Source: Prochlorococcus sp. AG-412-P08
Lineage (GTDB): Bacteria > Cyanobacteriota > Cyanobacteriia > PCC-6307 > Cyanobiaceae
Assembly (NCBI GenBank): GCA_003214695.1
Contig: QCLI01000005.1
Location: 1 to 64,000, forward strand
Direction of reading: 5' to 3'
DNA: 64,000 bases
This document shows, piece by piece, positions 3,003 to 37,786 of this stretch (positions are counted from its first letter, which is position 1; every line of letters begins with the position of its first letter). Under the pieces are notes generated by a model. It was not told the origin of the DNA and did no database searches. It saw only the letters and a list, made by a program, of their open reading frames with translations. The position numbers and the translations under genes are program-made.

Positions 3003-4229
3003 TCAAAAATTAATGATCCTTTGCATAGCTTCTTCTACATTTTCCCTACTATTGAAAGCAGAAAGACGGAAATAACCCTCCCCTGCCGTTCCAAAACCAC
3101 TCCCAGGCGTACCAACTACATTTGCCTTTTGCAGTAAGAAATCAAAGAATTGCCAAGAGCTTTGTCCCTTTGGAGCTTCTATCCAAACATATGGAGCATG
3201 TTCTCCCCCAAACACTGTGTAACCTGCTGATGATAATTCTTTCCTAATAATGCTTGCATTCTCCATATAAAAACTTACAAGTTTTTTTGTCTGCATTTGA
3301 CCTGACAAGGAATAAACAGCTTCTGCCCCTCGTTGAACGATATAACTGACTCCATTAAATTTAGTACTTTGGCGACGATTCCACAGAGTCCATAAATCAA
3401 TTTCAGTCCCGTTTAACGTCGAGCCTTGCAGTGATTTAGGAATAACTGTGTATGCGCAACGAGTTCCTGTAAAGCCAGCTTTTTTAGAGAAAGAACGGAA
3501 TTCAATTGCACAATTTCTTGAACCATCTATTTCAAAGATGGAATGAGGTAATAATGGATCTTGGATAAAAGCTTCATAAGCTGCATCAAATAAAATCAAT
3601 GCATTATTTTGGTTCGCATAATTAACCCACTTTGCTAGATGCTCCTTACTTGCGACAGCTCCTGTTGGATTATTAGGAAAGCACAAGTAAATTAGATCAA
3701 CTGGGTCCAAAGGGAGCTCTGCTTCAAAACCATTCTCTGAATTTAAAGGTATATAAGATAATCCTTCATATTGTCCTGCTTGATCTGCCTCCCCAGTTCT
3801 ACCAGACATCACATTACTATCTACATAAACTGGATATACCGGATCAGTTACCGCAATTTGATTATCTTCCCCCAGGATGTCAAGAATATTACTGCTATCA
3901 CACTTTGAACCATCGGAAACAAAAATCTCATCTGCGGAAATTTGGCAGCCTCTAGCCTGAAAGTCATTTTTAGCAATTGCCTCTCTAAGCCATGGGTAAC
4001 CTTGTTCAGGACCATACCCATGGAATCCTGAACTGTTTCCCATCTCATCAACAGCATCTTTCATTGCTTGGCAGCAAGCTTGGGGTAAAGGCTCCGTAAC
4101 ATCCCCAATACCCAAACGAATCAAACTTGCTTGAGGGTTGGCCTCAGAAAAAGCATTTACCCTTCTCGAAATCTCCGGGAACAGGTAACCGGCTTTAAGC
4201 TTGAGATAATTTGTGTTGATCTGAACCAC
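3003..4229 (-). CDS. dapL: LL-diaminopimelate aminotransferase
   Basis: 408 aa class I/II aminotransferase; [40 protein letters not shown] motifs. Confidence 0.95.
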
Positions 4230-4326
4230 GAAAAGAATCTATTTAATCCATGTATATACTGCCTGGAAAAGGTACCTATGTGGGCAAAAACTGCATACGA
4301 TATAAAAAGAAAAATGTTTATCTGCT

Positions 4327-7014
4327 GTGTCGGTTGAAATAAACTCTAGTGCAGAACAAAGCAATTTCTGCAAGCCGGTCAACTTTCACCAATTGGTGGA
4401 TATTGATATTCACAAGCCTGCCCAATATATGGGACATGAGCTTGGAAGGAAGCCCTTTGATTGGAACTCAAAAAAAGTACGTTGGGTTCTGAGTTATCCT
4501 GAACTATATGAAGTGGGGGCAAGTAATCTTGGCCACATCATTTTATATTCAATTCTCAATACTATCCCCGATCAACTATGCGATAGAGCCTATCTTCCAG
4601 AAGCCGATTTAGCAAAACGTCTTAGAGAACAATCCATAGGGTTGTTTGGAGTTGAGTCTAGACGTGAATTAAAGAATTTCGATCTCATAGGCTTTAGTCT
4701 TAGCTATGAATTAGGGGCAACAAATATTCTAGAAATGCTAGATCTAGCACAAATAGATATTTACGCAAAAAATCGAGCCAATTTATCTCTTGATGATCCA
4801 CAATCTGTACCTTTAATCTTTGCAGGCGGACCAACTGCAACTAGCAATCCTGAACCATATGTAGATTTCTTTGATTTCATTGCACTAGGTGATGGGGAAG
4901 AGTTACTGCCAGAAATAGGTCTCATCATTTCTAAAACAAAAAAATTAAAACTCACAAGATCTCAGACACTAATGAGTCTTGCTGAGATCCCTGGAGTATA
5001 TGTTCCTTCTTTCTACAAAACATCAAAAGATTTCTTATCCGTCAAAGCCGCCACCTCACTTGCTCCTACAAGAGTTATTAGACGTGTGGCCACTCCAATG
5101 CCTTATTATTCAATGGGGTTAGTACCCAATGTTGAGACCATCCATGATCGACTAACAATTGAGATTAGAAGAGGTTGTACTAGAGGGTGCCGTTTTTGTC
5201 AACCAGGCATGCTTACTCGACCAGCTAGAGATGTCGCTCCAGATGAAGTTGTAGATGCAGTTGAAACTGGCATGAAAAAAACAGGTTATAGTGATTTCTC
5301 TCTACTCTCGTTAAGTTGTAGTGACTACCTATCACTACCAGAGGTTGGGGTAAGGCTTCGCAATAAATTAAATGAAAAGAACATAACCTTACAACTACCT
5401 AGTCAAAGGATCGATAGATTTGACGATGATATAGCCCACATCCTTGGTGGAAGTCGTAAAGCAGGGTTAACCTTTGCACCAGAGGCAGGGAGTCAACGTC
5501 TCCGAGACATAATCAATAAAGGTCTTACAAATGCTGACCTACTTCGTGGAATACGCAAAGCAATGGAAAATAAATTCACCAAAGTGAAGCTATACTTTAT
5601 GATTGGTCTTCCTGGAGAAGAGTTTGAAGATATCCGAGCTATAGCAAAGACCTGCAAATGGCTGCAAGATGAGTGCAGAGATCTAGGTAGATTAAAATTA
5701 AATCTCACAATAAGTAATTTCACTCCCAAGCCTCATACGCCATTCCAATGGCACAGTGTCTCAACAAAAGAGTTATCACGAAGGCAACAACTTCTCAAAG
5801 AGGAATTCTTTACTCTAAAAATTAGGAATATAAAAATTAATTTTACTGATGTCAGAATTTCTGCCATAGAGGACTTCTTGGGCCGAGGTGATCGTCGCTT
5901 AGCTCCGGTAATTGAAGCAGCATGGCGAAGTGGAGCTGGAATGGATGCCTGGTTTGAATCTCAAGATCGGGCATATAACGCATGGGGGAAGGCCATTGCA
6001 AGTGCTGGTCTAAATTGCCAACTTAGGGAATTAGAAATAGGAGATTGGGATTTCGCTCAAACTTTAGGGAAGAATAATTTAATAAACTTCTGCCACAAGC
6101 CACTCCCTTGGGATCATATTGATACAGGCATCGATAAAACATGGCTCATGAAGGATTTAGAGAAAGCCCTGAATGCAACCATAGTGCCTGATTGTTCATT
6201 TGATCAATGCAGTGGGTGTGGTGTCTGCGGACCAGAGTTAGGTCACAATCAAATTATTCCATCCACATCAATACCTGCTAGAGAAGCACAAAAACTTCCT
6301 CACTCAGAAAAAAAATGTCGGATACGCTTGCAATTCAGCAAAACTATGCCTATGCATTTTATTAGTCACTTAGATTTAATTCGTCTACTAGAGAGAGCCT
6401 TAAGAAGAAGCGAGTTACCCGTCAGTTATTCAGGAGGGTTCCACCCCCTCCCACGTTTACAAATTGCTCTTGCTCTACCTTTGGGTGTAGAAGGTCTTGG
6501 CGAATGGATGGACATTGATTTCTTTGAAGAGGTAAACCCAGTCACCATGAAAGAAACGCTTCAACAGTACTTACCTATAGGAATACATCTCTTACAAAGC
6601 ATTAGCATCCCTATTCAAAAAGCCACGCTTTTCCAAGAACTTGTTCAAGCAAATTGGCATTTTCAACTAAAAGGGGAAAAAGGTGTGAAGCTTGATTTTG
6701 AAAAATGGGAGTATGCAATAAAGAAAATCGTTAATTCAAAGGAGTTGATCTGGGTAGATACCGATAAAAAAGGACGTTCGCGAAAAAGGGACCTAAAACC
6801 CGAGTTAAAGAACCTCCATGTAATTAAGAACAAAATCAAAAATAACCACTTAACTCACGAAGAAACAATATCTATCGAACTTCAGTCATTAATTTCTCCC
6901 ATAGGTCAGAGTATTAAACCAATGCATATTCAGCATTTACTGACTAAGTCGTTAGGCCATTCCATAACGATTAAAGACATAAAAAGAAGTAAGCTTATTT
7001 TGAAAAAGTGCTAA
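4327..7014 (+). CDS. TIGR03960-type B12-binding radical SAM protein fused to a C-terminal DUF2344 (TIGR03936) domain
   Basis: 895 aa; CTRGCRFCQPG cluster motif; C-terminal KCRIRLQFSKTMPMHFISHLDLIRLLERALRRSELPVSYSGGFHPLPRL typical of DUF2344. Confidence 0.9.
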   Translation: MSVEINSSAEQSNFCKPVNFHQLVDIDIHKPAQYMGHELGRKPFDWNSKKVRWVLSYPELYEVGASNLGHIILYSILNTIPDQLCDRAYLPEADLAKRLREQSIGLFGVESRRELKNFDLIGFSLSYELGATNILEMLDLAQIDIYAKNRANLSLDDPQSVPLIFAGGPTATSNPEPYVDFFDFIALGDGEELLPEIGLIISKTKKLKLTRSQTLMSLAEIPGVYVPSFYKTSKDFLSVKAATSLAPTRVIRRVATPMPYYSMGLVPNVETIHDRLTIEIRRGCTRGCRFCQPGMLTRPARDVAPDEVVDAVETGMKKTGYSDFSLLSLSCSDYLSLPEVGVRLRNKLNEKNITLQLPSQRIDRFDDDIAHILGGSRKAGLTFAPEAGSQRLRDIINKGLTNADLLRGIRKAMENKFTKVKLYFMIGLPGEEFEDIRAIAKTCKWLQDECRDLGRLKLNLTISNFTPKPHTPFQWHSVSTKELSRRQQLLKEEFFTLKIRNIKINFTDVRISAIEDFLGRGDRRLAPVIEAAWRSGAGMDAWFESQDRAYNAWGKAIASAGLNCQLRELEIGDWDFAQTLGKNNLINFCHKPLPWDHIDTGIDKTWLMKDLEKALNATIVPDCSFDQCSGCGVCGPELGHNQIIPSTSIPAREAQKLPHSEKKCRIRLQFSKTMPMHFISHLDLIRLLERALRRSELPVSYSGGFHPLPRLQIALALPLGVEGLGEWMDIDFFEEVNPVTMKETLQQYLPIGIHLLQSISIPIQKATLFQELVQANWHFQLKGEKGVKLDFEKWEYAIKKIVNSKELIWVDTDKKGRSRKRDLKPELKNLHVIKNKIKNNHLTHEETISIELQSLISPIGQSIKPMHIQHLLTKSLGHSITIKDIKRSKLILKKC

Positions 7015-35366: not shown

Positions 35367-35381
35367 AAACGGAGAGGGAGG
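35367..35381. repeat. Partial copy of the tRNA-Ser 3' end (AAACGGAGAGGGAGG), candidate att remnant
   Basis: Identical 15 bp at 37628..37642, the 3' boundary of tRNA-Ser. Confidence 0.6.
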
Positions 35382-35447
35382 ACTTTCGCTTGAACCCCTG
35401 TGACCTCTTATGAACTTAACAGAACGGGCAATATTTGAAAATCGTCC

Positions 35448-35476
35448 ATTTACCAACAACAATACCAACAACACAC
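35448..35476. repeat. 29-bp direct repeat, left copy: ATTTACCAACAACAATACCAACAACACAC
   Basis: Exact copy at 37491..37519. Confidence 0.95.
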
Positions 35477-35639
35477 TAAAATGTTAATTAGTGAATGGAC
35501 TTCTTCGCTTAAATATCATTTCCAAATATTACTAGAAACTAGACAGAGACTGGGGTTACGTGCTATAATCAATCATGAAGATGGCGTGAATAGAGCAACG
35601 TCAAATCGTAATAATCATATTCTCTAAAACAAATTTATT

Positions 35640-36635
35640 ATGGACAAGAATTGGGATTTTTTACTTTCTGAATTTCGTAGACTTGGCGGAATAGCAGATA
35701 ATATATGCCAAAAGGAAGGGAAATATGGGAGAGGTATCTTTTCTATTAATCCAAGTCTTAAAGCGAGAATTTTTACTCCATCAAAATTACTGGTCAAAAA
35801 AGATGATATTTATTTAGAAGGTAATAAATTAAGAATTAAAAAAGATAAGGAATATAATCAGGAAATCAGAGATTTTTTTAATTTTTACCAAGATAACTTT
35901 TCATGGGGATCCGGCGGGAAAGAAACAACAGAATTGTTTGAGAAAGGATTAAGTTTATTTAATTCAAATTTAAAGGAATTAATTAAAAAATATTCTTTAG
36001 TTGATTTAGAAGAAAGGCATCAAGGGAATTGGGATAATGTTATTAAAAAGCATTTCTTGAATGCCAGAAGTGTTGAGTTTGAAAATAATTCTGTTATTTG
36101 TCCTATCTGGGACCTTGTAAATCATAAAGTAAGATCTTTGTCTTTTGTTATTAGTAAAGAAGGAATAAGCGCTCCAAATTATCCCGCTTCAAACTGTGAG
36201 ATAAGATTTGCATATCGTAATATGAGTCCATTAAATTGTTTTTTTGCTTATGGTTTTTTTTCCAAAGAAACCATTGTATTTTCATTCCCTTTTTCAATTA
36301 ATATTCAAAATCTTGGTATTCATATTTCTTGTAAGGGAATCGCTCTTAAAGATGATTCTATGAAAATAGAATCATCTGGTAATAAAATTATTTTAGAAGG
36401 TTTACCTATCGCTGATGTCAATCATCCTAGATTGCCATATGATTATTTTGATGAGATTCTTAGGAAGATTGCTCATATTAATATTCCAAAAGATCTTTTA
36501 TTGAAAATATTTGACTTAAATATTTCAATTAGAAAGAAAATTATAGATGAGTCTTATTTAGTAGACAACGAAGTTTCAAGGGCATTGAGTAAACTTATGC
36601 TTTATGAAATTAATCTAATTTCATCTCACGATTAA
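35640..36635 (+). CDS. SET-domain-like protein (putative protein lysine methyltransferase)
   Basis: GKYGRGIFSINPSLKARIFTPSKLL (SET N-terminal RGIF-type motif) and CPIWDLVNHK (P-x-D-x-x-NH motif). Confidence 0.6.
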   Translation: MDKNWDFLLSEFRRLGGIADNICQKEGKYGRGIFSINPSLKARIFTPSKLLVKKDDIYLEGNKLRIKKDKEYNQEIRDFFNFYQDNFSWGSGGKETTELFEKGLSLFNSNLKELIKKYSLVDLEERHQGNWDNVIKKHFLNARSVEFENNSVICPIWDLVNHKVRSLSFVISKEGISAPNYPASNCEIRFAYRNMSPLNCFFAYGFFSKETIVFSFPFSINIQNLGIHISCKGIALKDDSMKIESSGNKIILEGLPIADVNHPRLPYDYFDEILRKIAHINIPKDLLLKIFDLNISIRKKIIDESYLVDNEVSRALSKLMLYEINLISSHD

Positions 36636-37284
36636 AACTGTATGAACCCAAAATTGACCATGATCTTATAGACATAATTTGTTCTGAACATAATCTTGCT
36701 TCTTCTAATTTACCAAGATCTCTCAATACATTTCCCAGATTGTTATACGCCTCTGCGAAATCAGGTTTGATTTCAATTACTTTGCGGTATGAGACTTCTG
36801 CGTCTTGTAATTTGTCAAGATCATTCAATATGTTTCCCAAATTGAAATGTGCTATTGCGTCATTAGGATTCAGTTCAATTGCTTTGCGAGTAGATAATTC
36901 TGCTTCTTGTAAGTTGCCAAGATCTCTCAATATGGTTCCCAGATTGGAATGTGCTTCTGCGAAATCAGGTTTAAGTTCAATTGCTTTGCGTAATGAGATT
37001 TCTGCTGCCTCTAATTTGCTAATACCTTGCAAAATTCCTGCATAATTAGAAAACACCCGGTGATCATGAAAACCTTGATTTATACAATACTGATAATATT
37101 TTGATGCTTCTGGAATATTTCCTTTTAGATGAAACTGAATTGCTTGATTGATTATTTGTTCTTTAGAAGGTTTAGAAGGTGTATTTGTATTAATAGTATT
37201 ATTTTTTTTTATTTCTCCTAAGGCAAATGGAACTGGAAATGTTTTCACTTCAGTAATTTTCTTCTTCCCTTCTTGTTCTGTCAA
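36610..37284 (-). CDS. TPR-repeat protein
   Basis: Three near-identical 34-aa TPR units (KAIELKPDFAEAHSNLGTILRDLGNLQEAELSTR ...). Confidence 0.9.
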   Translation of the reverse strand: MTEQEGKKKITEVKTFPVPFALGEIKKNNTINTNTPSKPSKEQIINQAIQFHLKGNIPEASKYYQYCINQGFHDHRVFSNYAGILQGISKLEAAEISLRKAIELKPDFAEAHSNLGTILRDLGNLQEAELSTRKAIELNPNDAIAHFNLGNILNDLDKLQDAEVSYRKVIEIKPDFAEAYNNLGNVLRDLGKLEEARLCSEQIMSIRSWSILGSYSFNREMKLD

Positions 37285-37490
37285 AGATTCTGTTTCTCTT
37301 GAAAACTTTGCAATGCATATTAATCTAGTTTAACTATAAAAACTAAATTTTTAGTGTATCTATATGTTCTATACACTTCCTTGCGATTGATTCCTCAAGG
37401 CGAGCATTTAACCAAGCGGTGCAGAAATTAGCAGAAGAAGCGTGTACTTGAAATTAATGGGTATCCTGAAGTTGCTGAAAGATCTAATGA

Positions 37491-37519
37491 ATTTACCAAC
37501 AACAATACCAACAACACAC
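37491..37519. repeat. 29-bp direct repeat, right copy
   Basis: Exact copy of 35448..35476. Confidence 0.95.
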
Positions 37520-37630
37520 GACTGAACTAGCATGAACTCGGATGATTTCATTAGACCGACTCTATCTAGTCAAACCAGTCAGTTTCAGGGTTTTTGGACT
37601 CGTATGAACTCCTCTGAACCTAATTAAAAA

Positions 37631-37719
37631 CGGAGAGGGAGGGATTCGAACCCTCGACAAGAGTTGCCTCCTGTAACTCCTTAGCAGGGAGCCGCTTTCA
37701 ACCACTCAGCCACCTCTCC
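37631..37719 (-). tRNA. tRNA-Ser (GCT)
   Basis: Minus strand GGAGAGGTGGCTGAGTGG...CTGCTAA...GGTTCGAATCCCTCCCTCTCCG; 7-bp acceptor stem, long variable arm. Confidence 0.95.
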
Positions 37720-37786
37720 AGTAGCTTCATTACCTTATCAAGACAACATCAATATCCCAAGAAATTTCCCTGATTCTTCAGGAATA

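Follow-up and report, generated by a model that had tools for sequence, protein, structure and literature searches.

Variable genes of Prochlorococcus are acquired at tRNA-linked islands. Tycheposons, as described in PMC10872708, carry a recombinase and measure 4-200 kb, and the same source reports additive flexible islands in Methylophilaceae, where the final ~20 bp of a tRNA gene are found repeatedly next to accessory genes of mostly unknown function. CIMEs and microCIMEs keep their att sites after loss of the recombination genes and accrete in tandem at one site, and the streptococcal microCIMEs are gene-less units of 130-220 bp (PMC7563491). In addition, the att site of the KplE1/IntS-TorI system contains, besides a tRNA core, arm-type sites for the integrase and short RDF sites arranged in blocks (PMC2951348).

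In the 64-kb stretch of DNA analyzed here (the window), positions 35367-37627 (2.26 kb) are interpreted, with a probability of about 0.82, as a single integrative element, non-autonomous and located at the 3' end of tRNA-Ser(GCT), with outer crossover cores and inner pairs of arm-type sites. On the best reading, it is a tycheposon-type, CIME-like cassette with complete att ends and without an integrase, and a member of a wider set of units at this tRNA gene. The left core (35367..35381), a displaced copy of the tRNA-Ser 3' end representing the left att crossover region, is identical over 15 bp to the right core (37628..37642), which lies within the tRNA-Ser(GCT) gene (37630..37720, minus strand), the intact integration target, and constitutes its 3' end. 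Both copies of this 15-mer, AAACGGAGAGGGAGG, occur where the earlier note had placed them and nowhere else in the 64 kb, where shuffled sequences are expected to contain none. Further inside, a 29-mer is present with 100% identity at 35448..35476 and 37491..37519, confirming the perfect direct repeat previously claimed, and its copies represent putative left and right arm-type pairs, with TACCAACAACA at 35451 and 35463 on the left and at 37494 and 37506 on the right (four in the window vs 0.05 expected). A genome-wide search revealed no more than these two copies in the 1.55-Mb assembly, even allowing 3 mismatches, and 13 congeneric genomes contained none; a dispersed repeat was thus ruled out.

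Between cores and arms, the left spacer (35382..35447; 95% identity with G009) harbors two TGAAC motifs and the right spacer (37520..37627) four, the latter arranged as two 10-bp spaced pairs, and these motifs are candidate RDF (excisionase) sites. The six copies fall within end segments of 174 bp in sum, and this count together with the 10-bp spaced pairs on the right was reached by 0 of 500 shuffles. The short motif TATGAACT reported earlier near each end is indeed present at 35409 and 37603, but its frequency (2 per window vs 2.7 expected) is at chance level, and only its TGAAC core is non-random. Directly inside the left arm lies the AAAATGTTAATTAG box (35478..35491), which was matched with <=4 mismatches in 33 of 53 left ends of related loci, compared with an average of 6 and a maximum of 15 in shuffles. 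Its position just inside the left arm pair is fixed across units with differing arms and cargo.

Comparison of the interval between the PAP2 and alr genes across genomes revealed that the tRNA-Ser(GCT) locus is variable within the genus. In the closest relative, G012, with 97-98% DNA identity in its core genes, the PAP2-alr gap is ~220 bp and the left flank passes through AAACGGAGAGGGAGG directly into the tRNA gene, which represents an empty site. G009 harbors a 208-bp unit without a gene, in which both end sequences meet at one inner site, and the more distant G003 has a 205-bp gene-less version at the same tRNA. Moreover, psaL is located only 133-440 bp from the tRNA in six congeners (G001, G002, G007, G008, G010, and G013), and the locus yielded no additional copy of the core in any of these six. 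Single-repeat-copy alleles were therefore identified at both levels, upholding the view that this is a tRNA-bounded, variable cargo island of tycheposon type without its own integrase. Of the two observations that had been named as speaking against an island, invariance among close relatives and a dispersed 29-mer, neither was made.

The window's segment could in principle reflect two successive insertions, whereby a cargo element would have entered a ~205-bp tRNA-bounded element via the 29-mer as its att or target site, as the outer unit occurs without cargo and with just one inner site in G009 and G003, and the inner repeats of several units (22-34 bp, composed of two ~12-bp copies) are identical inside a unit and different among units. 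The spacing of these repeats argues against this history, which we consider highly improbable. Six tRNA-Ser(GCT) units, among which five distinct repeat sequences occur, have inner repeats that begin 66-71 bp inside the core on the left, and in the same six they stop 100-115 bp before the core on the right, whereas shuffled ends have words of ~8 nt in common. In the G374 element, two shorter shared words of 15 and 11 nt lie at these core distances, and a seventh unit, the 2.6-kb unit of G387, has no more than 12 nt in common between its ends and lends the spacing no support. The tRNA-Ser(GCT) units with this layout differ in length, and two of them encode an integrase of their own. Intact elements with an integrase at tRNA-Ser(CGA), Ser(TGA), Asn, and Thr, one of them on contig C13 of the window's own genome, show comparable distances, mostly with different site sequences: their repeats start 67-80 bp from the left core and stop 111-155 bp from the right core; elements at tRNA-Pro do not show this spacing, and the survey comprised a few dozen units picked by the analyst rather than a blind sample. 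Furthermore, a G120 unit at tRNA-Phe carries relatives of both window cargo genes between ACTTCCATACC pairs located at 77 and 104 bp, so that the same cargo is flanked by other inner repeats at another tRNA.

The inner repeats thus track the att type rather than the cargo, and because their distance from the core is fixed in single integrase-bearing elements, they belong to one att pair, and one element explains both of the "nested boundary systems" from which repeated insertions had been proposed. That proposal was not sustained, and the inner repeat does not mark an insertion independent of the tRNA core. The ends are best read as one attL/attR pair, in which the 29-bp repeats would be pairs of ~12-bp arm-type sites for a P4/CP4-57-like tyrosine integrase. 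If the stretch from the left to the right arm sites of a single element were deleted, what would be left is a unit of ~200-215 bp in which the two cores and their spacers enclose one or two arm sites, which fits both the sizes of the gene-less units and their missing AAAATGTTAATTAG box, suggesting that G009 and G003 need no second insertion.

Two loci with integrase genes were also observed in this context. In the window's genome, contig C13 (4000-20000; L094) harbors a tandem at tRNA-Ser(CGA), consisting of a 7.2-kb element encoding a 442-aa integrase, an AlpA/MerR-like protein of 73 aa, and a resolvase, and of an adjoining 3.8-kb integrase-less unit encoding a 1095-aa protein with helicase and Mrr-type nuclease domains. 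In G097 (C1, 1756000-1770000; L095), two copies of a tRNA-Thr/tRNA-Tyr pair, ~8.2 kb from each other, flank an integrase gene.

When the ~205-bp unit was used as a DNA query, 25 of 400 genomes of the family matched, several as separate left and right halves. Neighborhood mapping uncovered tandem arrays downstream of tRNA-Ser(GCT) with units of about 0.2-7 kb, many of which start with a core copy and left end and finish with a right end followed by the next core. Among the array cargo are methyltransferases (FkbM-type and others), TPR proteins, DUF1651, and a TPR protein that also has a 2OG-Fe(II) oxygenase domain; the arrays further contain gene-less units of 201-226 bp and another short unit (255 bp) without a recognizable left end. 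The PF00589 matches in 22 genomes (three complete) included none within the tRNA-Ser(GCT) arrays, and among the examined array genes an integrase was found in the G374 and G387 elements only.

The G374 element (9.68 kb, at tRNA-Ser(GCT)) encodes a 430-aa tyrosine integrase in which the conserved R, H-x-x-R, and Y columns are present in the alignment, and almost the full length of the protein is covered by a match to NCBIfam PRK09692 (E 4.5e-14, below the curated cut-off). Its ends bear CCAACAACA arm pairs, and its right arm pair, TTCCCAACAACAATACCAACAACACA, has 23 nt in common with the window's repeat, whereas G387 combines its own tyrosine integrase with TTTCATCCCCC-type arms. No Pfam arm-binding domain was matched in the element integrases, and a profile search found no solved structure for them. 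Judging from these ends, the G374 element is probably an autonomous relative of the window's element, and a G374-type integrase, which is predicted to act on the ends of the latter, would excise and insert it in trans, or alternatively in cis once an element carrying such an integrase has integrated alongside. Neither a circular form nor a product of excision was observed.

Cassettes might also be swapped without any integrase, through homologous recombination between tRNA copies and shared cargo as in additive flexible islands, and the TPR cargo is indeed repetitive and common to several units, some of which combine left and right ends of differing types. A core of 12-15 bp is too short for efficient homologous recombination, and the precise core boundaries, the arm geometry, and the integrase-bearing members point to an integrase, making this explanation very unlikely for the element, even though homologous recombination may lie behind cargo swaps between end types.

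As claimed previously, two genes lie between the repeats. According to the ORF list and domain search, they are the only cargo and neither encodes a recombinase: a gene for a 331-aa protein without a known domain (35640..36635, plus strand) and a convergent gene for a 224-aa TPR protein (36610..37284, minus strand), with a 26-bp overlap of their 3' ends. This pair recurs in G097 and other genomes, and it was observed in several island settings (L135-L152). For the 331-aa protein, no family was found in Pfam, PHROGs, or NCBIfam, and no relative in IMG/VR or among solved structures; its sole PADLOC match was weak (E 0.023) and taken as chance. A resemblance of GRGIF, DLVNH, and YGFF to SET methyltransferases was seen by eye, but Pfam finds no SET domain and this identity is therefore not claimed. 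An AlphaFold prediction from a two-sequence alignment gave no usable model (mean pLDDT 37). Compared with L070, the gene showed a dN of 0.11 and a dS of 0.24 (ratio 0.46), indicating fast evolution at the protein level. Many TPR cargo proteins have an N-terminal motif like EVKTFSVPFAL in common (EVKTFPVPFAL in the window). In G332 (C47, ~3970-4600; L136), the same cargo adjoins, by eye, an apparent guaA 3' end with tandem GTGTGGAAGTG repeats, which suggests an attachment site at a protein gene.

Both ends and cargo have moved between genera more recently than the lineages split. Over 124 nt, the right end has 98% identity to that of G009, and it is 91% identical to that of G054, whose alr has only 64% DNA identity to the window's. 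Similarly, the 331-aa gene, which was not found in other genomes of the window's genus, is present in 17 of 41 genomes of another genus; copies in that genus show a DNA identity of 85-90% to it (88-90% for the best ones), compared with 65-76% for the core genes there, and its dS is 0.24 vs 2.2 for prfA. Ends and cargo being far more alike across genera than core genes, transfer has occurred. A phage origin was rejected, as 50,697 phage records gave no match and IMG/VR contained no left junction; arm-like IMG/VR matches lacked matching ends and were dismissed.

These data also bear on whether the element is a dead relic, with ends inherited from an integrase-bearing ancestor and no longer moved by anything. 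The lack of an integrase in the arrays and of one with matching arms in the window's genome (assembly 83% complete), as well as the occurrence of decayed ends, e.g., in G004, are consistent with this explanation, but the core and arm pairs of the element are intact and its right end and cargo have diverged far less across genera than alr and prfA, and a relic is accordingly considered unlikely. The high end identity and low cargo dS indicate that the transfer was recent, though perhaps within a larger element.

Integrase-bearing full-length relatives with nearly the same sites suggest a route by which small cargo packets pass between distant Prochlorococcus lineages. It is possible, although we propose it only tentatively, that the tRNA-Ser(GCT) arrays constitute a maintained system of integrase-less, att-bearing cassettes exchanged between genera by trans-acting tycheposon integrases, with the arm repeats allowing cargo to be emptied or swapped. 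If so, units with full attL/attR, one or two cargo genes, and several arm-site types would work much as CALINs do (integron arrays that lack an integrase), the difference being that they use att sites at tRNA genes. In addition, the arm-site spacing provides a means to delimit single units in islands and to recognize gene-less remnants, and it tells which integrase type each unit would require.

With regard to the known systems, the element resembles tycheposons in being variable and cargo-bearing and in having a tRNA gene at one end and part of a tRNA copied at the other, and its end layout is the same as in recombinase-bearing elements, including integrase-bearing relatives at the same tRNA. 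It differs in having no tyrosine recombinase of its own and in its size of 2.26 kb, below the 4-200 kb given in PMC10872708, and by that description is not itself a tycheposon. Recurring tRNA 3'-end copies next to accessory genes are shared with the additive flexible islands, for which the consulted passages of PMC10872708 mention neither an arm-site layout nor a partner integrase. The att layout matches that of KplE1 in its tRNA core, its arm-type sites, and its short RDF sites grouped in blocks, with the difference that KplE1 retains its integrase and that binding is proven there, whereas the corresponding roles here are putative (PMC2951348). As in CIMEs, both att sites are kept, the recombination genes are gone, and units accrete in tandem at one site; CIMEs, for their part, derive from conjugative or mobilizable elements (PMC7563491). 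The closest described parallel is that between the gene-less units of 201-226 bp at tRNA-Ser(GCT) and the microCIMEs of 130-220 bp (PMC7563491).
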